Assembly: GCA_009746045.1 (NCBI GenBank)
Contig: RPFO01000595.1
Span: 927,510-991,509, forward strand
Source: Mesostigma viride
Lineage: Eukaryota; Streptophyta; Mesostigmatophyceae; Mesostigmatales; Mesostigmataceae
Reading direction: 5' to 3'
DNA: 64,000 nt
Shown here in pieces: positions 8,561-28,450 of the stretch (position 1 is its first letter; each line of letters opens with the position of its first letter). Made by a program: the position numbers and the translations under genes. The notes beneath the pieces are model-generated. The model had not been told where the DNA came from and made no database searches. It was given only the letters and a program-made list of their open reading frames with translations.

Positions 8561-10727
8561 TAATAGCCCTGCTGCACCGCAAAATCAGCCCGCGTACGGC
8601 GGAGCATGATGTCAGCCATGGCCCGAGTCAGCGCCACCGACAAGCGCTGACGCCAACATGACGTCCAGTTCCGCGCCGACCATGGGGCCCGCTGGCCCTC
8701 CAGGTCCAGCCGGTCCTCTCGGAGCCGGCAACACTCCTTGAAGAAGGCGGAGGTCAGGGGCCCCATGGCCCCAAACTCCTCCAGGACAAAGGGCACCACA
8801 CGATGGTGCCCGACGTCGCCGTAGGCCAGGAGCTTGGCCCGCTCCGCCCGGTCCGCCGTGTAACCTGCCGTGAGGGAGGCCCCAGCCACGTGGCTAAGAG
8901 CCGAGGGCCGCGCCACGGAAACGTCGATAAGCAGATGCCGGCCACCCCCCTCAAAGTCCAGCACCACGATGTCAGGCCGGTGGTTGGGGGAATAGAAGGC
9001 AGCGCCATCCGCATCCTCGGACCGGATGTTCGCGTGGGGGAAAACCGACCGAATCATGGCGAGCACCACCGTCAGGAGGACAGTGTGCAAATACAAATAC
9101 CAATTCTGATTCTGTTGGCCCCCCATGCAGGAAAGGTAGTGAGTCCCCGTGGGATCCAGCGGCTGCCCACAGCTACCACAAGGCCACCCGGCCGGAACAA
9201 GAGGCTGCGGGGCAAATAGCTGGTGCCGGAGCGCCACCGAGTAGTGGCTGGGAGCCAAGGCGAATGGGGGGGCCATAGGAAGAGCACGAAGGTACGCCGA
9301 GCCCACACTCCGCAAGGAAAGCGAGAACAGCCACGCACGTCCCTGGGCGTTGAGGTCCGCGAAAAGAGCAATCCAATTGCAGCCGTGTGCAGAATACCTG
9401 CGTAGGTTTTCTGGTGTTTATCGATGACGCGAGCAGGGAATGCGGCGGGAGATTGAACGGAGGCGACCGAGGGAGTGCCGCGAGGGAGGTGGCGCTGTAC
9501 CGCCTGAGCGGCACGGACGGGAGAACAGGCCTGCTGGATCTCAGCATAGGCCGCCTGGATGCATGGCGGTGACGAAGGGCAAAGGGCTGCTGGGGTCCAG
9601 GAGGTCAGGCGCTGCCGTTGCCAAAAGGGGCAGGAGCCGGCAGCTTTCCGCCCACGACTGAGCGACGGAGCCCAAAAATGCTGCTGGGGCCAGCCGGGCG
9701 GCACGAGTCAGACCACAGCCACCCATCCGTGCAGGCAGGGAGGCAATGCGAATAGCATGTGGCGGGAGGTCGGGGCCCGGGACCAGCTGCGCCAAGGCCG
9801 ACTGGATGCGTTCGTCGTGGCCCTCGGCGGCCAGCCGGACCTGAGCCGGAAGAGCGCCCCGGAGCCAGTGAACGACGCGAGGGTGAGCGCAAAACCACAG
9901 AAGCAGACCCTTGGTCTGCGAATCATGAAGGCGCGCAATCAAGGGCAGTACCTCAGTGCGTGCCTCGAGGGCGGCCCGCAGAGCATCGATGACAAACGCG
10001 GGGTCGCCAACCGGAACGCCGAGGACATCCAACCCATGGAGGCGCTCGTCCCGGCCCAAGAGCTGGGGCGGAAAGCCGGAGCAATCACCTTGGGGCGAGT
10101 ACACCGCGCACTTGGCCAGGGTCAACTGGAGGTTGATGTCGGCCACCGCGGTCTGCAGTGCCATGCAGCAGAGCCGCGGTGGTGTCCGGCACAGGGCCCA
10201 GAAGGTAGATATCATCCAAGGAGGCCTGAATAGCGACCGCCGGGTGGGCAGCATGGACCGCTTGGAGGCAACCCTGGAGGGGGGCGGCAAAGTACAGGGG
10301 TCCCAGGGGGTCCCCTTGCTGGGTGCCCGACCGCGACAGCAGGCCGCCGCGAGTGCCGTCCTCCATGATGTGAACCAGTTGGCCGGGCTGGCCGTAGCAC
10401 ACGGCTGTCCAAGCGTACAAGTCCTCGAAGGACTCCATGACGGCCGCAAACATGCTGGCGCGGGACAGACTGTTGAACGCGTTGTGGCAGTCGACCTTGA
10501 CGACAGCGTGGGTGGGGTGGGCCTCAAGGTAGGCCTGCACCGAATGGATGAGGATATCCGCCCCGCCGGGAGTCGTCACCCCCAGCTGGGCCGCCACCGA
10601 GGTCTCACCCGCTGCGAGGGGCGGGCAGAAAAAGGCACGGAGCTCGGGCGCCTTTTGGCGGCAGATCACTGTGCCCACGAGCTTGCGGATCGAGCACCTC
10701 ACCGCAGGCGATCGGGCGCACCTTGCC
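8560..10727 (-). pseudogene. LINE A, distal part: reverse transcriptase, zinc finger and restriction-like endonuclease
   Basis: Reading the minus strand from 10727: GKVRPIACGEVL, then the reverse transcriptase with KVDCHNAFNSLSRASMF, SGTQQGDPLGPLYFA and the catalytic LDDIYLLGP (canonical YxDD as LDD). Then GLDVLGVPVGD, ARMGGCGLTRAARLAPAAFL (about 9715-9775), a CX2C...HX4C finger (CGSCGQPLDPTGTHYLSC) and an endonuclease-like core RPDIVVLDFEGGGRHLLIDV (about 8920-8980) resembling the PD-(D/E)XK endonucleases of early-branching LINEs. Frames change near 10685, 10150, 9600 and 9300, so it is inactive. Its N-terminal part is at 27855-28450, separated by the 17-kb element. Confidence 0.85.
10724..10727. 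repeat. Target-site duplication TGCC, left
   Basis: TGCC immediately before the left TIR of the 17-kb element; the matching copy is at 27851-27854. Confidence 0.7.
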
Positions 10728-10800
10728 GGGTGGTCCCACGCGGAATGGGGTCATTTTTTGCGCATTTTGCAAGAAAAAAACGCTAGTTTCAATCGTCCGA
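10728..10800 (+). repeat. Left TIR of the 17-kb element
   Basis: About 73 bp; matches the minus strand of 27785-27850 except for an 11-base insertion (CATTTTTTGCG region) after GGGGT. Followed by AT-rich DNA with repeated GATCGCG/TTCG motifs. Confidence 0.8.
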
Positions 10801-11015
10801 TCGCGTTTTTTCGCGCGAATTTGGCGTCCGATCGCGTATTTTCGAGCTAATTTGGTGTCATAATGCTTAATTCATGTCAATTTGAGCGTACATTCCACAT
10901 CGAGAGGCTTGAAATTTAGTAAAACATGTCAATCTAAGGGTATATTTCACATGGAGAGACTCGACAACAACCTAAACTTCGAATCTAAAACAATAGGACG
11001 AGCACTGCCAACCAC

Positions 11016-11210
11016 ATGGAGCGCTCATCATTTCCCCTCAACTTTTTTCCTGTGGGGGAGGACGGAGGGAAGTTGAAGAGGCAGTTGTACTGGATGCCGC
11101 TAGACTACGTGATAAAGGTGGCAGAGCTGACGGACAGCAAGAGGAGGAAGTCGAAAACGCAAGAGCAGATTGCGGAAGCGAAATTACGGATAAGGCCCTC
11201 AAAAAATTAA
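11016..11210 (+). CDS. Small hypothetical ORF in the 17-kb element
   Basis: 64 codons with a charged C-terminal half (LYWMPLDYVIKVAELTDSKR, then RRKSKTQEQIAEAKLRI) that looks helical and coding-like. No family recognised. It could be an exon of a lost gene of the element. Confidence 0.25.
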   Translation: MERSSFPLNFFPVGEDGGKLKRQLYWMPLDYVIKVAELTDSKRRKSKTQEQIAEAKLRIRPSKN

Positions 11211-11389
11211 GTGCGACTGACGACCCTCCTATTGGTGTCGTATCCAGACATCTGCCCATAAAGCATCACGTCTTCTAACTTTGCATACATTGGATTCTCC
11301 GGATCCTTGTTCCCTGCCTTCATAACGGCAGAAGTCCACCCATCAGACCAAAAGGCCTCTCGTGCTCCAAAGTCTTTTTCCCCGTCCAT
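11207..11389 (-). CDS. Small hypothetical ORF in the 17-kb element
   Basis: 60 codons from ATG at 11389 (MDGEKDFGAREAFWSDGW, ending DTNRRVVSRT). Amino-acid composition is balanced and coding-like, unlike the shadow ORFs nearby. No domain recognised. Tail to tail with the ORF at 11016-11210 (4-bp overlap), so the two may be remnants of separate genes. Confidence 0.25.
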   Translation of the reverse strand: MDGEKDFGAREAFWSDGWTSAVMKAGNKDPENPMYAKLEDVMLYGQMSGYDTNRRVVSRT

Positions 11390-12409
11390 AGTTGTCTCAC
11401 TTAATAAGTCTCATTTCCAACGTGGGCTTCTCATCACCCTCATTGCCCGCCCCCTTAGCCTCTCTTCCGCCCCCTTAGCCTTCCCTCCGGAAGTGTCAGC
11501 ATGTTGAGCCGCTGGTCCGAAGTCCACCGCCACATTTGCCAAGTGTAGGATCCGCTCCACATCCTCCTTACCTGCGCGCATACCGATCAACCCATCAACG
11601 AGTGACTAAAATCGAGTTATTAGAAGAAGAGGGATTGCCAAAGTTTGGATATCAAGTGAGGACACAATCCACTCGCAGAAATTTTAGATTACCCTTCTTA
11701 TAATTTACCCTTGTTGTCTTTGCACATGGTGCGGTTCGTCCTTCAACCTCTCCTCGCAGATAGACCCGGGCTGGCATAATCTTACTACGTACTCAAGGCA
11801 CGGAAAGTTGGGGGGGCAAAAGTGAAAGTTCCTGAGAGCCGACATGAAGATTCAAGGGTCGGCGGAGGAATCGGGAAGTCGTCCGTCAAATACGGTAAGC
11901 AGAGATTCTTAATACCTGGAATCGTCTTTTCGACGCACACCAAACCCGTAAAGGAAGGTTGACCTGCGTTGGATACGTCCGATTTCTGAAATCCTGGACA
12001 CGGGGGCAACTAGCCAACTACACGAAAACTCACGAAAATCGGTGTCAAATGACTGGGCAGCAACCCAGAATTACTGCTTGATCAGGCATTTTTTTTTTTG
12101 AGAGTTTTATCGAGACAAATGAAAAAGACAATCCGAGCGTTATCCGTTCCTCGCTGCCAGATTCTACTGGATTCCATGCGCTGACTCGCGTTGACCAAGC
12201 TTTATTCTTTGGGTTATCGGCTTCCCAACTTTCCGTGTACTAGACTGGGCCTAAGCCTAAACATAGTACTGCTGGTTGTCTCCTTGATAGTACCACCGAT
12301 ACTAAATATATCCGGCCCTCGGCCACTACAGATTCTCTGCTGCCCATGTGCGGCGTGAGACACAACAACAACAACAACAAGCCTAAACAGTACGGCGTCC
12401 AGGTCCGCG

Positions 12410-12740
12410 CCGACCCAGGGGCCCGCTAGCCCTCCAGGTCCACGCAGTCCTCCCGGAGCCGCGGGCAACACTCCTTAAAAGAACTTCCGCAGGTACTTAC
12501 TTACTCCTTAAAGAAGCCGGCGGTAAGGGTCCCCAAGGCCCCGAACTCCAAGACGAAGGGCACCACACGGTGGTGCCCGACATCGCCTTAGGCCGTGGGC
12601 TTGGCCCGCTCAACCCGATCCGCCGGGTAGCCCGGCCGCCGCCTGGGATGCACCAACTGAACCATGCGCACATGGCTAAGAGCCAAGGGGCGAGCCACAG
12701 AAACGTCAATGAGCAAGTGCCGGCTGTCTTATATATTTGA
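12410..12740 (-). pseudogene. Fragment of a LINE A-type endonuclease region
   Basis: Nucleotide-level match to 8665-8945 (the C-terminal part of LINE A), with deletions. An extra piece, ACTTCCGCAGGTACTTACTT, separates two copies of the CTCCTTAAA(G)AA segment. A dead fragment nested in the 17-kb element. Confidence 0.7.
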
Positions 12741-12799
12741 AACATTAAGGAGACAACCACATGGCAGCAAGTATCACGGTTTTCCATATACACCGTTTC

Positions 12800-12872
12800 C
12801 ATCCATCCATCGATCCATCGGGGTTAATGCTCCGTGACTCCCCAACGGGAGCACAAGTCTAATTAATTAATT
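12800..12872 (+). repeat. LINE 3' tail, second copy
   Basis: CCATCCATCGATCCATCGGG then the CTCCGTGACTCCCCAACGGG hairpin and AATTAATTAATTAG. Only the tail is present, a strongly 5'-truncated insertion. Confidence 0.7.
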
Positions 12873-13459
12873 AGTATACATCCTTTCCCGTTCATCACAA
12901 CCCTCAAACTTGTACTTCTGGACTCGCCAAATCAATCAACGAGCGTCGCCCATAAAAAAGCACGACAAGGTATGACACTCCCAACATCCGACTTCAACTG
13001 TAAAATGCACGATTCGGCAATCTTCAAAACATGAAAAATGTAGTCCTCCTTGACACTGTTCCCGATTAGGGATCACGCTATGGCTTCCAACATCGCAATG
13101 TGGTCCAGCCAGTTATCTGTGTAAGCTACACTCTCGCACAACTTAATTTGCGCGCCGACGGCACCCGCACCCGCCATCTCAACACATAGCAAGCACTTAG
13201 TATGGCAAGCGGATTATGGCCTTATCCACTTAATAGCCCGCCTCACCCTTCAAAAGTTTCATTACCGTCAATGTCTCGGGCTGCACATAACACAACAAAA
13301 ACACAGTCACGCATACCGTCGTCAAGCACCTGTAGTCTACGACGCGTCGCTCGAAAACATTTACAAAAAATGATGCAAAGCAACGGAGGCATTTCGAAAG
13401 TATTCGACGAATCAAGTACCCCCGCACAAAAGCATGTTTCACAACCTCGAATTGGGGAG

Positions 13460-13995
13460 GGGTCTCGCTGCAGCTAGACCCTTCCGTGAACGCAAAAAAT
13501 AAACATCGAATAAGTGGGAGGTCTTCCTGCAACTAGACCCCTCAAATCATACAAAGATGAAACATTGAAGTTGGGAGGGGTCTAGCTGCAGCTAGACCCT
13601 TACAGGAATGCGAAAAAACAACCAATAATTGGGAGGGTCTACCTGCAGCTAGACCCTTACATGCAATCAAAAAGGATGAAACCTTGGAAGTTGGGTGGGG
13701 TCTAGCTGCAGCTAGACCCTTACAGGAATGCGAAAAAACAACCAATAATTGGGAGGGTCTACCTGCAGCTAGACCCTTACATGCAATCAAAAAGGATGAA
13801 ACCAGGGAAGTTGGGAGGGGTCTAGCTGCAGCTAGACCCTTACAAGAATGCGAAAAAACAACCAATAATTGGGAGGGTCTACCTGCAGCTAGACCCTTAC
13901 ATGCAATCAAAAAGGATGAAACCTGGGAAGTTGGGAGGGGTCTAGCTGCAGCTAGACCCTTACAGGAATTCGAGAACTTTATCACAAATGAGTAA
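13460..13995 (+). repeat. 120-bp tandem repeat with perfect 22-bp palindromes (left)
   Basis: Units repeat at exactly 120 bp (compare 13621, 13741 and 13861). Each has a perfect 22-bp palindrome, GGGTCTAGCTG followed by its reverse complement, at 13578, 13698, 13818 and 13938, plus one near-palindrome (GGGTCTACCTG half) 57 bp later. Because 120 is divisible by 3, one frame stays open (GLAAARPLQECEKTTNNWEG repeated), but this ORF (13684-13995) shows no signs of being a protein apart from the open frame. Confidence 0.85.
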
Positions 13996-14039
13996 CATCG
14001 TCTCTCTGCAAAGAGACCCTTGCCAAACATGCAAGGACT

Positions 14040-15010
14040 GGCGTGGGTGTGCTGGGTGGGATGCGTGGGTGTGGTGGGCATGTGTGCGTGGGTGTGGTGG
14101 TGGGCTAGCATGTGTGCGTGGGTGTGGTGGGTGGCTGGCATGCGTGCGTGGGTGTGGTGGGTGGGTGGCATGCGTGCGTGGGTGTGGTGGGTGCCTGGCA
14201 TGCGTGCATGGGTGTGATGGGTGGCTGGCCTGCGTGCGTGGGTGTGGTGGGTGGCTGGCATGCGTGCGTGAATGTGGTGGTGGGCTAGCATGCGCGCGTG
14301 GATGTGGTGGTGGGCTGGCCTGCGTGCGTGGGTGTCTGGGGTGGCTGGCATGCGTGCGTGGGTGTGGTGGGTGGCTGGCATGCGTGCGTGAATGTGGTGG
14401 TGGGCTAGCATGCGTGCGTGGGTGTGGTGGATGGCTGGCATGCGTGCGTGGGTGTGGTGAATGGCTGGCATGCATGTGTGGGTGTGGTGGTGGGCTAGCA
14501 TACGTGCGTGGGTGTCGCGGGTGGCTGGCATGCGTGCATGGGTGTGGTGGGTGGCATGCTTGCGTGCGTGGGTGTGGTGGATGGCTGCCATGCGTGCGTG
14601 GGTGTGGTGGATGCGTGCATGGGTGTGGTGGGTGGCTGGCATGCGTGCGTGGGTGTGGTGGATGCGTGGCATGCCTGTGTGGGTGTGGTGGTGGGCTGGC
14701 ATGCGTGCGTGTGGTGGTGGGCTGGCATGCATGCGTGGGGTGTGTGTGGTGGCTGGCAGGCCTGTGTGCGTGGGTGTGGTGGTGGATGCATGGCATGCGT
14801 GCGTGGGTGTGGTGGATGGCTGGCATGCGTGCGTGGGTGTGGTGGTGGGCTGGCATGCGTGCGTGGGTGTGTTGGATGGGTAGCATGCGTGCGTGGGTGT
14901 GGTGGGTGGCTGGCCTGCGTGCGTGGGTGTGGTGGATGGCTGGCTTGCGTGCGTGGGTGTGGTGGATGTGTGCGTGGGTGTGGTGGGTGGCTGGCATACG
15001 TGCGTGGGTG
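14040..15010 (+). repeat. 30-bp minisatellite array (left)
   Basis: About 32 imperfect copies of a 30-bp unit built from GTGTGGTGGGTGGCTGGCAT plus GCGTGCGTGG. The period is a multiple of three and lacks stops, which creates long open frames on both strands that I do not regard as genes. Confidence 0.92.
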
Positions 15011-15019
15011 CACCGGGAA

Positions 15020-15625
15020 GGGGGGTGTGACATTTTGTGATATTTTGTGACATATCACGTGACATTTTGTGATGTGGATGTGACAAAATGTGACACTTTG
15101 TGATTTTTTGTGACAAAACTGTGATATTCTGTGACATTTCGTGATAAATCATGTGATAAAACCAGCATATTCTGTGATTATCTTTGTGACAAAAACAAGG
15201 AATTTATCACAAAATATCAATGTCACGACTTGACAAAACGCACTGACAAAATCCGTGACATTATCACTGATATATCACGAAAAAAGGGTGACAAATCCGT
15301 GACATTATCACAAAAAAAAGGGTGACAAATCCGTGACATTATCACGAAAAAAGGGTGACAAATCCGTGACATTATCACTGATATATCAGGAAAAAAAGGG
15401 TGACGAAATCCGTGACGTTATCACTGATATATCAGGAAAAAAAGGGTGACGAAATCCGTGACATTGTCACTGATATATCAGGAAAAAAAGGGTGACAAAG
15501 CCGTGACAATGTCACTGATAAATCTAGGGAGAAAACAGTGACATAAAACCACGGGCGATCATGACATATCACACAGATATATCGTGACATATCACACAGA
15601 TATATCAGAACACATTCCAAAGCAA
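15020..15625 (+). repeat. TGACA/TTTTGTGA motif array
   Basis: Dense irregular copies of GTGACATTTTGTGAT-like words, then (15240-15540) more regular copies of GGGTGACAAATCCGTGACAT with TATCACTGATATATCA spaced about 33-48 bp. Many words are near-palindromic (TGTCAC...GTGACA). A related array is at 21520-21815. It could be protein-binding sites or an origin-like region; not known. Confidence 0.75.
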
Positions 15626-16430
15626 AACGGATGAAAAGCACACCTCGCGATTTCTTTATTACAAATATAAAGATAAATGTAACAGATCTTCATTCTTCAT
15701 TCTTGATTCTTCATTCTTCAACAGTGATTATCGATCAGTGACAATTTGCAAACGCCGGCTTGGCGCTTGTCGTTGCGTGACAGAAATCTCAGAATGTTCC
15801 TGGAATGCAATAAAAAACGCACATGCGCAAGAAACATGAACGGATGGTTGGTGTCAGCTGTCTCATCTGCCACCGCACCCTAGAAAACCAATTCATGAAC
15901 AAGAAAGCGCTCGATATAGATCAAGAAAACAAAAACAAACCTGCGCAGCCGTGGCGCCTAGATGACGATGTTAAGTGGACGACGACGAGGAGGCCGGCAC
16001 CTTGTCTCCCTGTGAGCAGAAAAAAAAAGGCAAGTTTGAACACTCAAGATTTGTCATAGCCTTTCACAGCCTCGATCAATAGAAATGTTGCACATCAAAA
16101 TCAATGTGTTGCCTAGAACATCCTTGAATGGGTTTCAAGAACAGCAAGGCGGCCTCCCCCGCCCGCAAACTCATAATCCCAGTGTTTACAACCCCCTCAT
16201 GAGGGGGTTGTAAAATTGCAATCAGTCATTTAAAAAAAAAAAAAAATCCCAGTTTCACACACTGCCCACTCATAAATAATCCCAGTTTCCCACAGCCCCC
16301 ACTCAGCCCACTCTGACATAAACCACCCCAGTTTAGACACCCCCTCTCATGAATAAGCCCAGTTTCCCACAGTCACCTGGGAGACCGCGCAACCTGGGGT
16401 CAGTCAGGTCAGTCACAGCCGGTGCGGCGC
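15626..16430. other. Non-coding part of the 17-kb element with a perfect palindrome
   Basis: AT-rich, contains TTCATTCTTGATTCTTC-type repeats (15690-15720), a perfect 30-bp palindrome (16185-16214) and several CATAA-TCCCAGTTT(C) words (16170-16370). No gene recognised. Confidence 0.5.
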
Positions 16431-19400
16431 TAGATTACAATACCGGTCCGATGTAGTGTAGTGGGGTGGGTGGGGTGGGGGTGGGGTGGGGGAAGGGGGG
16501 GGGGTTCCCCTCTCCTTTGGTGGGTGTCAAGGGGGACATTGGTAGGGGTTGATGATTTAGTAGTTGTGGAACGCAGTTGTAAATGTGGGTAGCTCGTGCG
16601 TAGGTCACAGGTTCTTGTGAGGGGTGGGGATGCTTGGGTTGCCGTGGTGGCTTGCCTACGGTACGTAGGTGCCTGAATACAGTGGTGGGCAGGTGCACTT
16701 CGTGCACCCAGAGCAGGTGGCAGTTTACATTCCCCCACCTGCAAGAAATAGCCAAGAGTGTATTAAAGGCCATATGCCCCTTCTCAGGGCTAAGTGCTAC
16801 ATATACTCCCAACGGAGTTATGTTCCTAATTAATTAATTAATTAATTAATTAATTAATTAATGGTACGTAGGCGGGCTTGGCGATGGTCTATGCAGCAGG
16901 GTCAGTTATGGTTGAGTGGACAAGGGGTTGGTTGCCCCGGAGGCCGGGGTGGGCGGGGTTGGTTATGGTTCACGTGGATGGTGGGGTGGAGTCATCGTAT
17001 ATTAGGGCAGCGGGGGGTGGGGTCACTGGGCGGGGTGCAATGGTGTAGGGGAACCTCGTTGTGGGGCGGTAGGGTGGTTTAGTGGATGGTTTGCGATGTT
17101 GGTGTGGAATGTGGTGGAGGTAATACGGAAGGGTGGTAGTCACATAGGTTGGCTAGGGGGACTCAAAAAGTGGATGGTCGGGTGGGTCAGCGTATGGTTT
17201 GGGAAGGAGGGCAGTGTATGGTTTGGGGAGGAGGGCGGTGTTACGGTGTTGTGGGGGACCTCAGGGTGGGGGCGAGAGTGGTCCGTAGTCAGGGGGGGAT
17301 GGATAGCGGCATGTGGATGTCCGTAATGTATCTTTGTGGGTGGGGTGGGTATGGAACAGGCAGGGGAGTGGGGCGAGTGGGGGTTAGCAGGGTGGAGGGT
17401 GCTGGCATTGTGGCGGGATGGTTGGAGGCACATGGACACACATAATGGCAAGAGTAACTGCATGCATAGCAACATGGGACCAGCTGTTCCGAGAACATCT
17501 GCAACCCTCACCATGCAACAACCAACAGCAACCGGCAACTGCCAACAGTGACAACGTTCGCAAGATGTGACGCCAAGGCCATTGGAGATCCTGATGTAAT
17601 TTCGGGGGGTTCCTAGTCCTGCCGTGTACTTAACTTAATTCAGGGCCGCACACTTCGTGTGGTGCAGTGGTGCAGCGAGGGCTCATGGCCGGTATGGTGG
17701 TAGCCGGTAGGTGAAGACCTTGCTGCGAATCGAGGGCGTGATATTGCATGGGAAAATGATGCCGAGAGTCTCAGGGCGTCTCGCGTGGTGACAGCTGCAG
17801 CGTGTGGGCCGAGGAGCTCGAGATGCAGGTCTCGTCGGTACATGTGGGCCACTGGTGAGGGCGCCAATGTGATGGAGGCCTTTCCATCGTGCCAGTTGGA
17901 CATCACTCAACAGCCAAAGGGGCGGCTGCATTGGCGGTGGGGCTAGAATTCTGGTAACTGCACAGAATTGACCCAAGAAAGCTCGAATCGCGGGCATGGG
18001 CAGGCGAGGTAAAAGAGGGAAACATTGCGCCAGCGGTTGAGGAAAGAAGGCCTGTTTACAGTGCTGGGCCTCAGAAGGAGTCGAGGCGTCGGCTCAGTTG
18101 GCAGGGCGACGATAAGTCTGTCAAAGCTGCGCATGGGTGGCGCAATGAGAGCTCATTAGGAAGGTCTCGCGCAGGAGGTTTCGATAGGCTAAAATTTTTC
18201 TCAGTCCTCGAAGATTAGGCGGGTGAAAATCGTAAATCCGCCATAGCCGCCATTTAAAAAATTTTCCCGCTTTCCATGGGATATACTGCCTAGCCTTACA
18301 GTAGCCAAATGGATTTGCGTGCGCCTCAGTCCATGCACCTAGTCGTTCGCCATCGGTTTCGGCGCAATATTTGAATTTTGCGCAAGGATCCTGACGGGTT
18401 GATTCCAGACTTGCGCTTGTTGCGAAAGATTATTGATTTATTTTGTCCATTCATTCCAGACTCCCAAGCTAGGGGCCGCCGTCGACTGTAGTCTGAACGG
18501 TACGGCTAACAGTTACGATGCCAGGCCAGCAGCAAGCGGTCAAAACCAAGCGATACTAGAGAGTCATGTCAGTCGTCTTTTTACTGGTTTCGTCACTCAG
18601 TTATTCCTCATGTATGTCAAACTACTTCTACTTGGGAAGATATGTAGTAGCGGCGAATCGGAAGTGGAAGTGGGCAGGGGGGGGCGGGAAGTACGACTGA
18701 TGCAATATACCGTACGTTAGTTATCGTCACAAAGCGAGTGACTGACGATAGTAAAGGGCCTCTAATGACGACAGTGATGACGATAGTATTTGGCACTGAT
18801 GAGTGATGACAGGAAGAGCGATGACCCCAAGTTACCAGACTTTGCGACGTTGATGAGACTTAGCGAATTGCGAGCCCTCATTCCAGTGGTTGCGCGGGTG
18901 TTACCGTTGAAGTTGAAGAAAAAAAAACTTGACTTGAACATCTATCCACGCTGCACAGGTGGGAAAGGTGGAAGGGAGCTGCGATCGGCTCGCAGCCAAG
19001 GCGGGATTATGTGCCTTTTGATTTCCAGCAATGTCGCTTCTGTATGAACGCACGTGGTGGTTGGAATAGGAGCATAGGCTTACTGATGACCGTCGTGATT
19101 TATGTAGCCATTAGGGCGTCGTCTTAAATGAATTCAGGAGCGAGCTCGGACAAGGCTACAAGCAGCCATCGGGGGAGAAACATAGGCATGGTCTGGAATA
19201 AAGCTTCAATCGATCTGTTCGCTCAGTGGTAGGCACAGCACATTCGGACATCCAGAAGCTGCCCACTCTTTACCAGTTGAGGTGAGCAAGGAATTCCTCG
19301 CCTGAAATTCTAATAAGTTTGCATCGACTTTAACATGCATGCCGTACGCACGTGGCATTCTCACGTATCGCCCTAGGGCCAAGGCTGCTATGGGCCGCTC

Positions 19401-21500
19401 GGTTTCATGCCAAGTTAGCCGTGCTTGCCATGAATGCTGCAGCAGTTTCACTATCTCATTCGTACAAGGTCAATAGACTATGCAAACGACATCCGATTTA
19501 GTTTTCATGAAGGGCATAACCTTGTTCAGATTGAGAGTTGCATGGCATGGGCTGCTCTTGCGCCACTTTCCTTGTCTTAACCTACTGATTCTCTGTTTAT
19601 GCTTTCGGTCGTTATACATTCGTATGTGTGCATCTGTGCTGCCATTGTGGTGTCAATTTTGCGCGTGTACTTGTGATGCCTGATACCGTTGGACTTGCAC
19701 GCGGCCCCATCGCATGTGGCAGCGACAAGCTCTTGGTCGCCTGTCCAGCGCGGCGAATTCTTGATGGTGAGCAACGGTGATCATTCTTTATGTAGTGCTC
19801 ATTCCTCAAATTATCAACGTGCTGTGCGTGTCAGCCACCATTGGCCTTGTTCTTCCAGCTTCCGTGCATGATTTTTTTGTAGCCCGCTGGTGATGCTCTG
19901 AGCTACAAATAGTTTGCATTATTTGTCCCAATTCCTTCGCTGTCGGTAGAATCTTCTTTGCAATCCAGTAGCCTTGGTTGACATTCGTGGCATTGCTGGA
20001 CTATATCTCGCTTCCTTGCATGGGTAGCATCTTTGCATATTTATCCTTTTTGCTCAGATCACAGCTTTTTGTCATTCCCTCCCCCCGCTCCCCACCCTGA
20101 ACGACTCCTGCTAGTGTCAACTGCAGACGTAGAGCCTTCAGCCTCGTTAGAGTTCATCCTACCTGTAACGGGGCATATTGTTAGTTGATTGGCCTTGCAT
20201 TTTCTTGGCACTATTCAGGCGTTTCTTTCTTATTGCCGTATTAACCATACAGAGATTGCAATGAAGTAGATTGTGAGGCCTCTTGGCATGTTAGGGAACC
20301 TTTGCGACTCCAGGATTTCTGGGTGTGCAGTTCCCTACAACTTGTGAGGCATGTAGATACAATTTAGGTGAACATCTATGGCCAATTTTTTTTCTCGAGC
20401 ACCCCTGTCTCTCTCTTGGCCCAGTATCTCACCTTTCTTTGTCCTAAAATTAGGCCGGTACTCATAGATAGCCACGCAACTGCTGCGATCTCCCCCGCAT
20501 CCTTACATACAAGTGAACTGAAGTCATGCAAAGTTGTTGGCACGTCCAGCGCGTAGCGTTCATCTCACTAACAAATTTTTGTGTGTACCGATGCGTGCTT
20601 TGCCGGATGATGTATTTTTGTCTTGCATGCAGGCAATATACCTAACACAGTCGGGCCGGGCACATCCGTCAGTCCAACACGGCGAGAGGCCACATGCGGA
20701 TGCAGATTTTGTAGGCTCTGAGCCTTCAATGGTCACATTGCCGTCGCACTTGACAGTGTCCTGTGATTGTTTCTAGAGAGTCATCCAGTTACTTCAGCAA
20801 TGGTGGCTGGGACAGCCCTCGTGATGGTTTCGGTGATGATGAGGATGATGACTTTGATGACGAGGACTGTTGAGCCCCGTTGTACTTCTCGGTCAACAGA
20901 TTTTATATTGCATTTGTGAGATGATTGTGGGTGTCCATTTTGCACACCACCCACAGCCATGCTTGAGTGCACCGTTCCTTGTGTGTGTATCAATACAGTT
21001 TGTGTTCGTATTTGATCAGTTGTGCCATTTCATCGGGTTGTTGCATGCCATCTGAATATGTTCACTCCCCGTTGCCATTTTATCATACTAGTGTTGTGAG
21101 CTCAGAGCAATGGATGCATGATGCAGTGTTGTGATTCAGTGTAGATATTGACGATTTTACCTTTGATCAGCATGATGGATGCTTGGCCAGCGATGGGTCG
21201 GAGGTTGACACTTGATGACCGTGATGATCATTGCCCTGAATGTTCAATATTGGTGTTTTTCTTAACATCCCAGTCGATATTTTTGCAATAAACCATGTCT
21301 CCCACGGCTCATGACATTGTGGTGCATTTTATCATGCACCTGAGAGTGTTTCCAGCTTGTTTTGTCAGTTCCTTTCAGTACGCTTGCCCCGTACCGCTGC
21401 ACGTGTTGTCTCTCCTGGCATTGCCACCTTGTCGTGTCCCACCTTGGCCTTTTCCTTCTCCGTCTCTGCTGCGGCACGCACTTCCTTGCTGCGGATGTGC
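16431..21500. other. Central part of the 17-kb element, no gene recognised
   Basis: 16450-17450 is G-rich on the plus strand (GGGGTGGG-type runs) and is interrupted by (TTAA)n at 16828-16861. From 17600 to 21500 the sequence is mixed with only short ORFs on both strands and no recognised domain. Stretches at 18720-18800 and 20800-20870 are rich in GATGA/GACGA. It may hold intron-rich genes that cannot be seen without homology searches. Confidence 0.5.
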
Positions 21501-21519
21501 ATTATGCGTGCTTTGTGAT

Positions 21520-21815
21520 ATATCACTTCCCCTGAGTGGTTGTGATTTATCACCTTGTCACATTTTGTTTTTCTGTGGGTTTGTGACATTTTGTGACACT
21601 TTGACATTTTGTGATAGTGACGTTATCACAAAATATGCTGGTTTTATCACGTTTGTCACGTTTTGTCACAATCATGACATGTCTCGATCACAATTTGTCA
21701 CAGTTTTATCACATTTTGTCACATTTTGTCACGTTTTATCATTTTTTTATCACAAAATGTCACAAAAGTGACATTTTGTGATAAAAAAATATCACAAAAT
21801 GTCACAGACCCCTTC
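21520..21815 (-). repeat. TGACA/TTTTGTGA motif array (second)
   Basis: Same words as 15020-15625 (ATCACAAAATGTCACAAAAG and so on). On the minus strand it is bounded by CACCGGGAAGGGG, as is the first array on the plus strand, so the two arrays are in inverted orientation. Confidence 0.75.
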
Positions 21816-21825
21816 CCGGTGTGTG

Positions 21826-22022
21826 GTGGGTGGCTGGCATGCGTGCATGGGTGTGGTGGGTGGCTGGCATGCGTGCGTGGGTGTGGTGGGTGGCTGGCAT
21901 GCGTGCGTGGGTGTGTTGGATGGGTGGCATGCGTGCGTGGGTGTGTTGGATGGGTGGCATGCGTGCGTGGGTGTGTCGGATGGGTGGCATGTGTGCGTGG
22001 GTGTGGTGGTGGATGCGTGGCA
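21826..22022 (+). repeat. 30-bp minisatellite array (middle, short)
   Basis: About six to seven copies of the same 30-bp unit as at 14040-15010, ending at the left TIR of the foldback element. Confidence 0.85.
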
Positions 22023-23630
22023 TGCGGGAAGTGACGCAACGAATGTTATGGCCGAGCAAACTGGGCCTCCTTGCCCGTGGCTGACGGAAATACAATTCAA
22101 ACAGACGGCCTCAAAGCATAGTAATGAATGCAACGACGTTCAAAAGCGTCCCAGATCGACATGAAAAGAAACCGAGCGCTAAAGCCGGTAGAATACATGC
22201 ATGGCGGGACATGATGTATTGGAAAAGCCTGGTTGCCTCCGTATCCGCTCCTGACGTGAACAAATGGAAAGAGACCGCCTGGAAGCCAACATATGCATGC
22301 GCCACTGTTCCGAAGCCCAGCAAACACGAACAGAGCTTACCCAGGCGTCATTCCGGGTGCCACCATCTTACCCTGACAGTCGTCATCCTAGCAACCTCTA
22401 GCAGAGCTTACGGCCCCCACAGTCCAGGAGTTTCCATGACCCATCATAACGTACCTCAGCATCGGTGACTTTAAAACCACGCTTCTAAGCGTACAAGAAT
22501 ACCACTAGCTTTCCTGTAACAAACATGACCAACTGAGCACGTCGCTGTCGACAGCCATACCATTTGTCCAGCGGCCATTTGCGACGCGATGCAATTGATG
22601 TGCATTATTTTGCTGGGCCCGTGGGCCACATCGCCGTCAACGGCTCAACGCTGCGCTCTGGTGGGTCTTCACGTGTGGACGTCAGCCTTCAAGTGTCGTC
22701 CAATCTGCTTTCTCGGTTTCGAAAAATTTGGTCGAGACGATTGCCATCGGCGCCGCGCTTCCACTTTCCGGCGACTGCGAGGATGCCACGTTACCGTTTT
22801 CTACCCTTTTACAGCCGTACGCTTTGCGACCGTTTTCATTACTAGTGTTCCTTTGGAATACGACATTATTAGTAACCGAGCAAGAAGATTGGACGACACT
22901 CGAGGGCTGACGGTTCACACGTAAAAACTCAAAGCGCAGCGTTGAGCCGTTGACGGCGATGATTGTGGCCCACGGGCCCAACAAAATGATGCACATCACA
23001 ATTCTAACAAAAACCAGCAGCCTACCTATTACCTACCCAACCCTAATTGCATCACGCTGCAAATGGCCACGGGATTACGGTATGGCTGTCGATAGGAAAG
23101 TGTTCAGTTCGTCATGCCGTTGGGAAAGCTAGCTCTCTTTTTGTGCGCTTAGGAGCGCGGTTTTAAAATCACCGATGCTTAGGTACGTAATGATGGGTCA
23201 TGCAAGCTCCTGGACTGTGGGGGCCGTAAGCTCTTGGAGAGGTTGCTGGGATGACGACTGTCAGGGTAAGACGGTGGCACCCGGAATGACGCCTGGGTAA
23301 GCTGCATTTTTGTTTTCTGGGCTTTGGAACGGTGTCGCCTGCATATGTTGGCTTCCAGGCGGTCTCTTTCCATTTGTTCACGTCAGGAGCGGATACGAAG
23401 GCAACCAGGCTTTTCCAATACATCATGCCCCGCCATGCATATATTCCGATATGCATATATTCCACTGTATTTTGCGCTCGGTTTCGTTTTATTTCGATTT
23501 GGGACGCTTTTGAACGTCGTTGCATGCATTACCATGCTTCGAGGCCGTCTGTTTGAGGTGTGTTTCCGTCAGCAACGGGAAAGGAGGCCCAGTTTGCTCG
23601 GCCATAACATTCGTTGCGTCACTTCCCGCA
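22023..23630. mobile_element. 1.6-kb foldback element with long inverted arms
   Basis: Starts TGCGGGAAGTGACGCAACGA and ends with its reverse complement. Arms of about 640-700 bp (22023-22665 and 22930-23630) match in inverted orientation with scattered substitutions and indels, around a spacer of about 270 bp. Flanks read TGGCA on the left and AGGCA on the right, a possible 4-5 bp duplication. No transposase; short ORFs in the arms mirror each other and are not credible genes. Confidence 0.75.
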
Positions 23631-23985
23631 AGGCAGGTATGACTCCCGCTCTTTGTTTATGTATTTCGATTATGGACAACGCCTTTTTATTCTCTTACCA
23701 GCAACCGGGCAGTGTTTTTCCGTTGTGTTTCGGTCAGCAACGCTTACCGAGCATCTCTGGTGCGTTATTCCCTGTCACGCAGATATTCCTTCGTTCTTCT
23801 AACTGGGGTCTGTTGTATTTCGATTGTAAGTTTTATGAAATTCCCATCAACTGATTTGTTGGCATATTTTGGCTGTTGCACTTACTGCATGCAACTTTGG
23901 ATAGGCAACGATTAATAGCTATTATATATTATGTTTGGTAACTATATGTCCTTTTTAAAACTATATTATTCTCAGTATATAAACG
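23631..23985. other. AT-rich spacer, nothing recognised
   Basis: No ORF, repeat or element recognised between the foldback element and the right minisatellite. Confidence 0.5.
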
Positions 23986-23987
23986 CC

Positions 23988-25110
23988 AGCCCCCCAACAC
24001 ACCCAGGCACGCATGCCACCCATCCAACACACCCACGCACGCATGCCAGCCACCCACCACACCCACACACGCATGCCAGCCACCCACCACACCCACGCAC
24101 GCATGCCAGCCACCCACCACCCCACGCACGCATGCCAGCCACCCACCACACCCACGCACGCATGCCAGCCACCCACCACACCCACGCACGCATGCCAGCC
24201 ACCCACCACACCCACGCACGCATGCCAGCCCACCACCACACCCACACACGCATGCCAGCCATCCATTACACCCATGCACGCATGCCAGCCATCCAACACA
24301 CCCACGCGCGCATGCCAGCCCACCACCACACCCACGCACGCATGCCAGCCCAACACCACATCCACGCATGCATGCCAGCCACCCACGCACGCATGCCAGC
24401 CACCCACCACACCCATGCACGCATGCCACCCATCCACCACACCCACGCACGCATGCCAGCCATCCACCACACCCACGCACGCATGCCAGCCCACCACCAC
24501 ACCCACGCACGCATGCTAGCCCACCACCACATTCACGCACGCATCCCAGCCACCCACCACAACCAGGCACGCATGCCAGGCACCCAACACACCCACGCAC
24601 ACATGCCAGGCACCCAACACATCCACTCACGCATGCCAGCCCACCACCACACTCACGCACGCATGCTAGCCCACCCGCGCACGCATGCCAGCCATCCACC
24701 GCACCCATGCACGCATGCCACGCATCCACCACACCCACGCACGCATGCCAGCCATCCACCACACCCACGCACGCATGCCAGCCCACCACCACACCCACGC
24801 ACGCATGCTAGCCCACCACCACATTCACGCACGCATGCCAGCCACCCACCACAACCAGGCACGCATGCCAGGCACCCACCACACCCACGCACACATGCCA
24901 GGCACCCACCACATCCACGCACGCATGCCAGCCCACCACCACACTCACGCACGCATGCTAGCCCACCCGCGCACGCATGCCAGCCTTCCACCGCACCCAC
25001 GCACGCATGCCACGCATCCACCACACCCACGCACGCCATGGCAGCCACCCACCACACGCACGCATCCACCACACCCACGCACGCATGCGACACACCCATG
25101 CCAGTCCTCA
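23988..25110 (-). repeat. 30-bp minisatellite array (right)
   Basis: The same 30-bp unit in the opposite orientation to the left array, about 37 copies, with an internal higher-order duplication: 24500-24665 and 24800-24965 are near-identical, including variant units. Confidence 0.92.
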
Positions 25111-25900
25111 CATGATTGGATTAGGTCTCTCTTCAGATCTGCTCCCATGAATTTGTGATAGAATTCTTGCCTTCGTTGAAGGGTCTACCTGCAGAGAGAC
25201 CCCTCCCAACTTCCAAGGTTTCATCCTTTTTGATTGCTTGTAAGGGTCTAGCTGCAGGTAGACCCTCCCAATTATTGGTTGTTTTTTCGCATTCCTGTAA
25301 GGGTCTAGCTGCAGCTAGACCCCACCCAACTTCCAAGGTTTCATCCTTTTTGATTGCATGTAAGGGTCTAGCTGCAGGTAGACCCTCCCAATTATTGGTT
25401 GTTTTTTCGCATTCCTGTAAGGGTCTAGCTGCAGCTAGACCCCTCCCAACTTCCAAGGTTTCATCCTTTTTGATTGCATGTAAGGGTCTAGCTGCAGGTA
25501 GACCCTCCCAATTATTGGTTGTTTTTTCGCATTCCTGTAAGGGTCTAGCTGCAGCTAGACCCCTCCCAACTTCCAAGGTTTCATCCTTTTTGATTGCATG
25601 TAAGGGTATAGCTGCAGGTAGACCCTCCCAATTATTGGTTGTTTTTTCGCATTCCTGTAAGGGTCTAGCTGCAGCTAGACCCCTCCCAACTTCAATGTTT
25701 CATCTTTGTATGATTTGAGGGGTCTAGCTGCAGGAAGACCTCCCAGTTATTCGATGTTTATTTTTTGCGTTCACGGAAGGGTCTAGCTGCAGCGAGACCC
25801 CTCCCAACTTGGAGGTTGCGAAAAAATTGTTTCTCAGGTCTACATGATTCTTACGGATACTTTCGAAATTGCTCCATGGCTTTGTATCATTTGCTGCAGA
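23990..25900 (-). repeat. Right internal inverted arm of the 17-kb element
   Basis: Counterpart of 13340-15010. Outside the 120-bp repeats, the match continues through GTGAACGCAAAAAATAAACA and GGAGGTCTTCCTGCA to ATTTCGAAAGTAT at about 25858-25870. Confidence 0.75.
25160..25810 (-). repeat. 120-bp tandem repeat with perfect 22-bp palindromes (right)
   Basis: Units at exactly 120 bp (compare 25261, 25381, 25501 and 25621). Perfect palindromes at 25301, 25421, 25541 and 25661, four as on the left. A lone derivative of the same word lies outside the arm at about 26373-26395. Confidence 0.85.
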
Positions 25901-27784
25901 TGTCTTGGAACGATGCGTCCTATTATTCAAAGGCCAAGGCCACCAATGTTTCACCGCAAACAGTGAGCCCCCCGGGATCTCCGGATTAGGTGGGGAAGGT
26001 TCCAGAGGACGTTCCAGCCTTGCCTCCTCGTGCGTCCCCTCAGACGCATTAGGGGTCTGTCATGTCCGTTAGGTCTCCAGCTCCGGCCACACTGCCCGCA
26101 TCGTTAATTTTGATTTAGCCGAAAGGCCCTTCGGAATTAGACGATAGCGTTTTATTAGCTGCAAGTGCTACTGTGCCCGTGCAAATAAATAATTAGTAGC
26201 TTGTTTTTTTTGTTAACGAACAACTCTTGAACTTGCTGCGCAACTTAATAATTCTTTGTTTGTTTGGTATAACCCAACGGAAGGGGGAGTTGAGGCACGC
26301 ATGTTGAGAACGGGGAGGTTAAGTGTGAAGTTGCACACACCATATGGTAGAATCGATGTTGAGCAAGTGGGCGAGGGTCTAGCTGCAGAGAGTCCTCAAT
26401 TGCAATTATTTTCGTTTCGCTTTGTGCAAGTATTCCAATTGGAGTTGAATTCGGAAATATATACCTGCGCTGGTTGTCTCCTTGATAAGCCGACTCAGTA
26501 CAGTCGAGTGTGATGGGATGGATGGCGCTTATTATCGAAGTCCTAGTGACAGGGGTATGTGGGCACCACGGCCCGAATCTGGGGTACTGTGAATGCCTCC
26601 CACCGGCTTGGGGGTGTCACACGCGGAGCCCCCACTGGCTTGGGGGTGGTCTCCTTCATTACTAATTGCCACCTATCCTTGCGAACAATTGGCCCCCAGA
26701 TTACAGACACATCGATGGATTACGACACTACTTTGCAATACTCGTCGCAAATGAGGGACGTCTTGAAGTCACATGTGACGGGATGGGCCGCGGCAACAGG
26801 GGTTATAATTTTGCTGCTGTTGTTCGAAGGGGCGCACTTTGACATGTATTTTCTACACTTTGACATGTATGCTCGGTTTCTTTCAAAGCACACCTAGTCA
26901 ATGTTTGCGGTGCATGGTTCACGCACGAGATGAAGGAGCAAGAGGTGGCCCGGAACGAGGGTGAGTAAAGGTGAGTCGTTTTTTGTTGAATTGAGGGAAT
27001 TACTATTCTATGCGGTCAAGATAGAGCCATCAGGTTTCTTCCTAGTATTCTGATCCTAGTATTGTTGGTGATGGTTGTTGTGAAGCCTCTTTTTGCAGCG
27101 CGACCTTGATTTTATTATTTAAGTTATGTAAATGATATAGGCAACGGACGAACTGAAGTGCACGCGATAGCAGGAACGGTAGTAGTCTGAAAGACTTCGA
27201 CAATTTCCGTCATCAGGTTGTCCCCGCACCTTTTTGTAGGCACATTGCCTTGTCAATTAGTACATGCAAATATATATACGATTCCATCAAACTTTTTTTA
27301 GAGTTTGTTGATTCCCTGAATTGATAGTAAAAAGCTGCTAGCAGGCCATGGAGACGAATTGTATTAGTGCAGGCCACGCACGAATTTTGAAGTGGCCCGC
27401 CGAGCGGCTGTACAATTTTTCCCAGTGAGCGCGCTGCCAAGTGTACTTGTGGGCAAATTTTTAAGTGCCCCGTCACTTCGAGGTATTAAAAATTAGGCTA
27501 CGGTACGAATTCAGCGAATTTCAGAGAATTTTCAGTCGAACGAAAGGAAGTGACGCCAATTGCCAAAAAGTTTCTGTTACGAATTTTCTAGTCCAACACT
27601 TGGCGCAAAAGGAAGTGACGGCCAAAACGTTTCCGCTACAAAAATTTCAGTCCCTGAGGCATGGGACAAAGTGCACGCGACAGCAGGAAAAGGTCAAGTT
27701 AAATAAAACTGGCGCAAAGTCCGGCCGGCGGAAAATTCGCTCGGCTGCAAAAAATTCGGCAAGAATTTCGGCGCAATGTCCGGT
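25901..27784. other. Right flank of the 17-kb element
   Basis: No gene recognised. Contains the lone palindrome derivative (about 26373-26395), the third copy of the SINE-like repeat (26540-26712) and, at 27480-27700, sequence in which CAAAAGGAAGTGACG-type words repeat. Confidence 0.5.
26540..26712 (-). repeat. Dispersed SINE-like repeat, copy 3
   Basis: Matches 8205-8350 (GTGGGCACCACGGCCCGAAT, GCTTGGGGGTGGTCTCC, CCAGATTACAGACA), with a local duplication of the ACGCGGAGCCCCCA/GGCTTGGGGGTG segment. Confidence 0.6.
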
Positions 27785-27850
27785 TTTCGGACGATTGAAA
27801 CTAGCGTTTTTTTCTTGCAAAAATCTACCCCATTCCGCGTGGGACCACCC
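27785..27850 (-). repeat. Right TIR of the 17-kb element
   Basis: Inverted match to 10728-10800; followed directly by TGCC (27851-27854). Confidence 0.8.
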
Positions 27851-27854
27851 TGCC

Positions 27855-28450
27855 CTCGGGGGGGGGCAAGACACCCTTGAGCAGAGCGAGGAGGCGAGCG
27901 CCCGCTAACCACTCGCGCGCAGCGGGAGGAACGCGACCAGCCGCCACTGACAGGTCAATGAGGGTGTCAAAGAGAATGTCCTCGCCCCCATGCCCCACCA
28001 GGACCTCCAAGTGCTCGTAGCGCCAGCCCGACGGCCCGGTAGAGGAAGCCCGCGGGACCGCGCGCATCACCTCCAGGAAGCAGTCGCGGTCCAGCCGGAG
28101 GGGGGCCGGCAGGGGGTCCGGCACGGGCAGCTGGAATCCGGGCTCCGCAGGGTGAAGAGCCTCCAAGGCCGCCAGGGTAGCCGCATTGGCGGGGGCCAGC
28201 TTGGCCATTTCCAAGCGGGTCATGGCCCGGCTGAGCTGCCCCTCGCGGACGAGGCGGATGACGTCGGCGGCCACCCGCTCGAAGCTGACCTCCCCCGACA
28301 GCCGGGCCGTGCGCGGGGGCGGCACGCCAAACAGCTAGCCCCTCCCAGTCCCCCTGCAGAAAGCGTCGGCAACGGGCAATAACCGCACCCTGGAGGCCGC
28401 GCACACCACGCCCGAGAGGGGTGAGGAGCAGGCGGGGGGTCACCATATGC
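27855..28450 (-). pseudogene. LINE A, N-terminal part
   Basis: Reads GVRGLQGAVIARCRRFLQGD (frame 1), then after a frameshift near 28330 RTARLSGEVSFERVAADVIR, TGPSGWRYEHLEVLV and ARLLALLKGVLPPPEG, stopping at the 17-kb element. TGPSGWRYEHL just before the reverse transcriptase core is typical of this LINE group. It continues at 10727 on the minus strand. Confidence 0.82.

Follow-up and report, generated by a model that had tools for sequence, protein, structure and literature searches.

Most cut-and-paste transposons measure a few kilobases. EnSpm/CACTA elements have CAC...GTG ends with 2-3-bp duplications and a repeat-rich subterminal design, and include two-product autonomous elements with deleted derivatives, while foldback-type elements have long inverted arms made of tandem repeats. 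The target of piggyBac is TTAA, Polintons duplicate 6 bp of their target, and Sola was reportedly defined in a paper from 2009. In the parts of the literature cited here, Polintons are presented as giant DNA transposons of 15-25 kb, and transposition efficiency is said to fall above a cargo of 6 kb (both PMC6431247). Ginger elements are described there with TGTNR ends, CCGG/CCGT or RTATAY targets and a Gypsy-like integrase (PMC2836005), and Sola2 elements with 4-bp AT-rich target duplications, short terminal inverted repeats (TIRs) and a DDE-type transposase (PMC3627910).

The window, that is, the whole stretch of 64,000 nucleotides of Mesostigma viride DNA analysed here, contains at 10728-27850 an interval that the first-pass annotation took for one insertion of 17,123 bp. 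We consider it very probable that this interval is a 10,314-bp non-autonomous cut-and-paste transposon with a second element nested in it, the former most likely moved by the transposase of a 21-kb autonomous relative. The best reading of the family is a young two-gene giant cut-and-paste transposon together with its non-autonomous derivative. The features of the locus are the following:

10085..10723, minus strand: LINE frame, 3' half, frameshifted near its start
10724..10727: left copy of the target site duplication (TSD) TGCC, a perfect 4-bp duplication
10728..10800, plus strand: left TIR, 24 bp perfect, 73 bp alignable
10801..13436: left subterminal region, with degenerate fragments of the 21-kb relative's gene 2
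13437..13976, plus strand: array of 57/120-bp repeats that contains the 22-bp palindrome GGGTCTAGCTGCAGCTAGACCC
14077..15010, plus strand: tandem array of 30-bp units that forms the left arm of the central mirror
about 15011..21821: nested second element with CACCGGG...CCCGGTG ends, TSD TG (or GTG)
21822..22009, plus strand: remainder of the left 30-bp array, split by the nested element
22010..23984: mirror centre, with inverted arms inside
23985..25064, minus strand: 30-bp tandem array, right arm (inverted)
25179..25823, minus strand: array of 120-bp repeats, matching 13437-13976 in inverted orientation (97% over 540 nt)
25824..27786: right subterminal region
27787..27850, minus strand: right TIR, 24 bp perfect, 64 bp alignable
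27851..27854: right copy of the TSD TGCC
27855..28334, minus strand: LINE reverse-transcriptase frame, 5' half, interrupted by the insertion

As first annotated, the interval is bounded by inverted repeats, with termini at 10728 and 27850 (a perfect match over 24 bp, alignable over 73/64 bp with a gap), and is flanked by TGCC on both sides. The TIR termini of the outer element read GGGTGG, and the left TIR has the same end in the nine loci, out of 20, whose outer flank was read (one being the window itself). All ten copies read across both ends, namely the window copy, eight other copies of the 10.3-kb type and the 21-kb copy C446, carry a perfect 4-bp TSD; these are ten different 4-mers, and 18 of their 40 bases are A or T. 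The length of the duplication is thus constant, and many copies carry the TIRs in a fixed place. When the flanks are joined, the minus-strand LINE reverse-transcriptase frame is open across the junction (...LLALLKGVLPPPEGKVRPIACGEVL...). The earlier claim that the LINE is restored once the insert is removed applies to the junction, where the frame is continuous, but not to the LINE as a whole, because a separate frameshift follows about 11 residues further on according to our reading of the frames.

The TIR pair is not confined to this locus. A genome-wide search with the first 20 TIR bases, allowing up to 2 mismatches, returned 470 sites (238 plus, 232 minus), compared with 0/0 for the reversed-sequence control. 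Three canonical copies of the outer element showed 2, 2 and 4 differences in 10,314 positions, which indicates that movement was recent.

Elements of a second class, about 21 kb long, have the same TIR as the 10.3-kb element and two divergent coding arms. Their left gene comprises three exons and about 1,050 codons, typically lies 2.7 kb inside one end, and contains an RNase H/DDE-like signature (HGDWAENY ... CSDNC..QFKS.Y ... EQHGKGEVDG). The three-exon model has GT-AG introns and is open in L045, and exons 1 and 2 are joined alike, except for two residues, in a Mesvir1 gene model. The DDE exon has 138 genome matches, 84 of which span residues 2-302 with 98-100% identity and no stop. C446, the only 21-kb copy whose whole sequence was read, has a DDE frame shortened to 303 codons, compared with 353 or 358 in most full-length matches; it is also the sole 21-kb copy read across both ends, and its TSD, AGCA, lies within a CAG repeat and is weak on its own.

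The conserved D/E-rich signature is located in a gene that is linked to the TIRs. Among 100 listed TIR sites, all exact matches, 30 have a DDE exon on the expected strand at an inward distance of 2.4-5.2 kb (2,700-2,728 bp in 19 of them, two of the 30 sharing one exon), and none has it on the wrong side or strand. The same sites form 31 neighbouring convergent pairs. The exon is missing from all six pairs spaced 10.3-10.7 kb and present in all 16 spaced 16-35 kb; five further pairs lie 39-58 kb apart, three of them with the exon, and four are separated by more than 370 kb. Of the 100 sites, 35 fall outside the DDE ends, the gene-2 ends and the 10.3-kb pairs alike, and 8 of the 37 DDE-exon matches used had no listed TIR. 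Judged from its sequence, the DDE-like protein is a putative transposase, which would mobilise both classes, the 10.3-kb element most likely in trans. The autonomous relatives with a transposase that the first-pass annotation proposed to look for may be represented by this TIR-sharing class with a DDE-like gene; the gene matched no Pfam or NCBIfam family at cut-off.

Protein searches gave no named transposase relative, and a search of solved structures gave no hit. The catalytic-type signature of the DDE-like protein is also kept in an unnamed protein and in one dinoflagellate record. A public proteome contains two gene models, P0004 and P0005, that seem to belong to this transposon or a related one; over the signature, P0005 matches DUF7869 below threshold (E 0.12), as it does TniQ further on (E 0.11), and P0004 has no such match. 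DUF7869 was rejected as the family, being one sub-threshold match. A DDE_Tnp_1_7 protein (L041, in C998) was likewise rejected as the transposase of the family: it belongs to a nested 4.4-kb element that has separate ends and a TTGT duplication. Among the titles and abstract starts listed in literature searches, none pointed to this transposon family, and no paper was found on HGKG together with transposase or on DUF7869.

It is possible, though we rather doubt it, that the family is a divergent Sola lineage close to Sola2, a reading based on the 4-bp TSD, a Cys-rich region before the DDE domain and the HGKG..DG motif. The DDE/HGKG motif of the left gene presumably resembles that of Sola2. The 4-bp duplications and short TIRs agree with the Sola2 description in the cited part of PMC3627910, yet the duplications described there are AT-rich, whereas here A/T bases are in the minority. 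The protein searches argue against this assignment as well, and the elements differ from Sola2, with which they were compared by description only, in their length of 10-21 kb, their two coding arms and their mirrored central arrays. Ginger1 and Ginger2 share the 4-bp duplications and the TIRs, but the ends found here are GGGTGG, the targets vary and no integrase was matched in Pfam at cut-off. The repeat-rich, two-product design with deleted derivatives recalls EnSpm/CACTA, as do the CAC...GTG ends of the nested element; the outer element, however, has GGGTGG ends and 4-bp duplications, and its arrays are central rather than terminal. Long inverted tandem-repeat arms are shared with foldback elements, but here they are internal, 2.0-2.7 kb from short true TIRs. 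The piggyBac target was not matched by the TSDs of the window or the other copies.

The second coding arm of the 21-kb class, gene 2, lies nearer the other end and reads toward it, in divergent orientation to the first. It is probably a single gene, with 120 genome matches, and its exon was found 3.9-6.8 kb inward in 23 of the 100 listed TIR sites and never inward on the wrong strand. A division of roles in which gene 2 supplies the recombinase, with the DDE-like protein as an accessory, is unlikely. In its spread and its linkage to the TIRs, gene 2 roughly equals the DDE-like gene and, like it, reached no Pfam family cut-off; a catalytic-type signature kept in other sources was seen for the left gene only, gene 2 having been searched in this genome alone.

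A virus-like origin, in which the 21-kb class would be an integrated Polinton or polinton-like virus from which the 10.3-kb class derives, is very improbable. The size of 16-25 kb, in the Polinton size class, the TIRs and the coding right arm would fit, and an ORF of the right arm gave a sub-threshold match to Nucleo_P87, a viral capsid name (E 0.5); this ORF is of low complexity, and two non-viral families score better. On the other hand, none of the 14 ORFs scanned in C446, a single copy, reached the Pfam cut-off, hence no capsid, DNA polymerase, packaging ATPase or retroviral integrase was matched. Furthermore, no relative of the DDE protein was confirmed in IMG/VR contigs, and the TSD is 4 bp rather than the 6 bp of Polintons. 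We therefore rejected this origin.

The preferred reading, a 10.3-kb element with a nested one, rests on comparison with other copies from the same genome, of which 10 were fetched and 8 included both ends within the sequence retrieved. The outer element comprises window positions 10728-15008 and 21824-27850 (with a small junction ambiguity), and its length is exactly 10,314 bp in 3 of the 8. In the copy alignment, 15011-21821 was absent from all eight, so that none covers the 17.1-kb interval, which is too long by the nested piece; longer copies of the 10.3-kb type (e.g., C667) hold nested inserts of their own. Therefore, we conclude that the 17,123 bp consist of a 10.3-kb element whose 30-bp array later received an insertion of 6.8 kb. 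The 6.8-kb piece has its own ends and its own 2-3-bp duplication, as in EnSpm/CACTA elements (seen in one copy), and carries TGTGACA/TGTGATA repeats near both ends. No CACTA transposase or other recognised gene was found in its five scanned ORFs (Pfam, E ≤ 1), though a non-autonomous copy would lack a transposase too. A single intact 17,123-bp mobile unit can be ruled out almost entirely by these copies, even though the outer TIRs and TGCC bracket exactly that interval. Segmental duplication or misassembly as the source of the copies can be dismissed, for although the cited part of the Mesostigma genome paper reports many segmental duplications (PMC6947507), the flanks are unlike between the copies compared and each has its private perfect 4-bp duplication.

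The mirror-image repeat arms and motif arrays described initially are present in the 10.3-kb element, and further inverted arms lie within the mirror centre (22191-22514/23123-23446, 90%; 22013-22212/23441-23640, 87%). With five ORFs of the outer part added to those of the nested part, 0/10 had a Pfam match at E ≤ 1, in agreement with the initial view that the window copy holds no recognisable transposase or viral gene; none of the ORFs tested in the 10.3-kb copy was gene-like. By tblastn, remnants of gene 2 were found at about 11043-11204 on the plus strand (54.9% identity, E 2e-18) and at about 11195-11605 (59.4%, E 2e-43) and 12937-13065 (55.8%, E 5e-11) on the minus strand. Beyond the first 24 bp, the two classes share only matching pieces of 81.5-95.7% identity, and their 30-bp unit sequences are unlike.

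The 10.3-kb element probably arose from an autonomous relative through gene loss, retaining the TIRs, the mirrored core of 30-bp arrays and the 22-bp palindromes, the last being candidate binding sites. It inserted into the LINE, now frameshifted, with duplication of 4 bp, most likely through the transposase of the related 21-kb element, present in many near-identical copies in the same genome, acting in trans, and the 6.8-kb CAC...GTG element later entered the left 30-bp array. The initial suggestion of a new family or a non-autonomous giant was essentially right: the element appears non-autonomous and belongs to a large young family, with a longer same-ended class that carries a candidate transposase. 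As a tentative proposal, a little short of probable, we suggest an undescribed giant cut-and-paste group of superfamily level, in which autonomous copies of about 21 kb carry two divergent intron-bearing genes without a known family, arranged to point away from a central mirror made of 30-bp satellite arrays, and in which the 22-bp palindrome, spread across introns and spacers, is read by the element's own proteins; one or more dinoflagellate records would contain a relative of the group, and its movement in Mesostigma may be continuing.

The near-identical 10-kb copies and the 21-kb copies, with a DDE exon of 98-100% identity in 84 of the 138 matches, suggest that a giant element without recognised viral genes has recently been mobile many times in a unicellular streptophyte. 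With an autonomous and a non-autonomous partner that have arrays and palindromes in common, the cis requirements of a giant element become testable.

The inverted ends of the window copy start exactly at positions 10728 and 27850. Their first 24 bp are perfect, the TIR likeness extends to 73/64 bp with one gap, and TGCC flanks the copy on the left and on the right, as the first-pass annotation had reported. The claimed restoration of the interrupted LINE holds at the junction, where the minus-strand frame is open once the flanks are joined and one TGCC is removed; however, as we read the frames, a separate frameshift lies in the LINE shortly past it. The interior, described as highly organised, is indeed so: a 57/120-bp array, a 30-bp array and a centre are followed by a mirror-image repeat of these.

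Searching the genome that holds the window (439.9 Mb, 2,243 contigs) with the left 173 bp gave 40 matches, 23 of them identical including the window (best 40 of 469 candidates), and with the right 200 bp 41 matches, 26 identical (best 40 of 480 candidates). The TIR, which the annotation had proposed as a query, recurs elsewhere in the genome among the matches scored. Ten other copies were fetched, of which eight had both ends inside the stretch, with lengths of 10,314 (three copies), 10,383, 10,562, 11,184, 13,819 and 16,946 bp. All eight are flanked by a perfect 4-bp duplication, each different (TCCC, TGCT, CACG, AGAG, TGCA, ATTA, AGCC and TGGA), and comparison of the three canonical copies gave 2, 2 and 4 differences in 10,314 positions. 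In the copies on contigs C1469 and C557 the right end is absent from the 19.7 kb read. The former continues into what we take, from its motifs, to be LTR-retrotransposon-like coding sequence; past 6.3 kb (stretches L027/L028), frames presumably of this kind are nested in both orientations. The latter continues into a run of N within the copy (C557:2183050-2194505; L039 1-1456 and the whole of L040), which is either an assembly gap or withheld sequence.

The eight other copies with both ends lack window positions 15011-21821. Therefore, the 17,123 bp is composed of 10.3 + 6.8 kb, and the proposed single insertion has to be abandoned. Other longer copies (C667 and C998) carry inserts of their own:

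Nested inserts in copies of the 10.3-kb element
Window 15011-21821: nested element, extra relative to the other copies; ends CACCGGG...CCCGGTG; TG (or GTG) duplication
C667, approximately 11.8-16.7 kb of the stretch (L031/L032): insert of 4.9 kb with a 1,020-aa frame
C998, L041 885-5261: nested 4.4-kb element; ends TGTC...GACA; 4-bp duplication TTGT

TGTGACA/TGTGATA repeats form motif arrays close to each end of the nested element in the window. Judged by its motifs, the C667 frame is presumably a Penelope-like RT with GIY-YIG. The 736-aa protein of the C998 insert is DDE_Tnp_1_7 (Pfam E 3.3e-33), a piggyBac-type protein, yet the duplication is TTGT instead of TTAA.

The genome has 470 sites that match the initial 20 bases of the TIR with at most two mismatches (control, 0). 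One hundred of these, all exact matches, were enumerated, and the pair and linkage tallies rest on them. Convergent neighbouring pairs fell mainly into two classes, six of 10.3-10.7 kb and 16 of 16-35 kb, many at about 21 kb; the remainder were five of 39-58 kb and four above 370 kb. The long copy read (C446:1408900-1430467; 21,568 bp) has the duplication AGCA, a left arm with three minus-strand exons, and a right arm with eight consecutive plus-strand ORFs of 198-436 aa, which are taken as predicted exons of one second gene (gene 2). Its centre holds mirrored 30-bp arrays with a unit different from that of the 10.3-kb element. In a second copy, read in the putative transposase region only (L045), all three exons are open, are joined by GT-AG introns and make up 1,052 codons when counted from the initial Met. 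In the Mesvir1 gene model P0004, the junction of exons 1 and 2 has two extra residues and the third exon is read differently. The frame of the DDE exon, the left-arm exon with an RNase H/DDE-like signature, is shorter in C446 than in most copies, and the longer frame does occur in others. None of the 14 C446 ORFs (four left-arm, two central and eight right-arm; one truncated) and none of the three L045 exons reached the Pfam cut-off, the best sub-threshold name among the scanned ORFs being Cnd2 (E 0.022) in a low-complexity ORF, and NCBIfam gave nothing for the five pieces searched.

The linkage tallies cover the contigs of the 100 TIR sites and C356, with 37 of 138 DDE matches and 33 of 120 gene-2 matches; three DDE matches of about 31 residues on these contigs were excluded. 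A DDE exon lies within 6 kb inward on the expected strand at 30/100 sites, 19 of them at 2,700-2,728 bp, and on the wrong side or strand at 0/100; one exon is common to two of the 30 ends. At 23 further sites a gene-2 exon lies inward and is transcribed toward that end, while none of the 100 has one inward on the wrong strand. Twelve sites are the ends of the six 10.3-10.7-kb pairs, and 35 belong to no DDE, gene-2 or 10.3-kb group. Conversely, 29 of the 37 DDE matches could be assigned to one of the 100 sites; some of the other eight may have a TIR with one or two mismatches, since the set is exact-only. DDE/gene-2 pairs at most 40 kb apart were divergent in 23 cases versus three otherwise arranged. 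Genome-wide, 84 of the 138 DDE matches (130 of 978 candidates scored) span residues 2-302 with no stop codon and 98-100% identity, and five copies at 87% form a group with two stops in each.

The first 24 bp are identical in the 10.3-kb and 21-kb classes. The 21-kb copy aligns by its left 140 bp to the right end of the 10.3-kb element (95.7%) and by its right 900 bp, in pieces, to the left end (82.7-89.8%), and decayed gene-2 pieces lie inside the 10.3-kb element (protein identity 54.9-59.4%, best E 2e-43). Based on these piecewise end matches and decayed pieces, the 10.3-kb element is best read as having arisen by deletion from a relative rather than from the exact 21-kb copy read. Both classes also have in common the palindrome GGGTCTmkCTGCAGmkAGACCC (22 and 23 sites, respectively, at most two mismatches in the 16 fixed bases), whereas the remaining 46.9 kb of the window and the nested element have 0 sites each; 20 base shuffles of the 46.9 kb gave one. 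In the 21-kb copy 18/23 sites lie in introns and spacers, outside the stop-to-stop ORF extents used, and 5/23 inside. At L045 2753-2780, the splice donor predicted for intron 2 in the putative transposase gene shares bases with the 22-bp palindrome.

Outside the copies, the nearest database proteins were two Mesvir1 gene models (90% and 69%), followed by an unnamed protein (47%), a record from the dinoflagellate Prorocentrum lima (45%, covering one third of the query) and a further weak relative (E 0.16). The 69% relative, P0005 (1,018 aa), suggests that this host has a second family or an older lineage. In the host genome paper (PMC6947507), the section on repeats (2.3) deals with LTR elements and does not describe any individual DNA-transposon family.

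This anatomy is consistent with DDE cut-and-paste transposition and a 4-bp stagger, by which the elements would move, the 10.3-kb copies using the enzyme of the 21-kb copies in trans. We infer catalysis by the DDE-like protein, this trans action, and roles for the arrays and palindromes. The family has the duplication length of Sola2 (4 bp) but not its AT-rich target feature, and the DDE-like protein has what we take to be a Sola2-like motif. We class the family as a DNA transposon family of novel construction and not as a member of Sola2.
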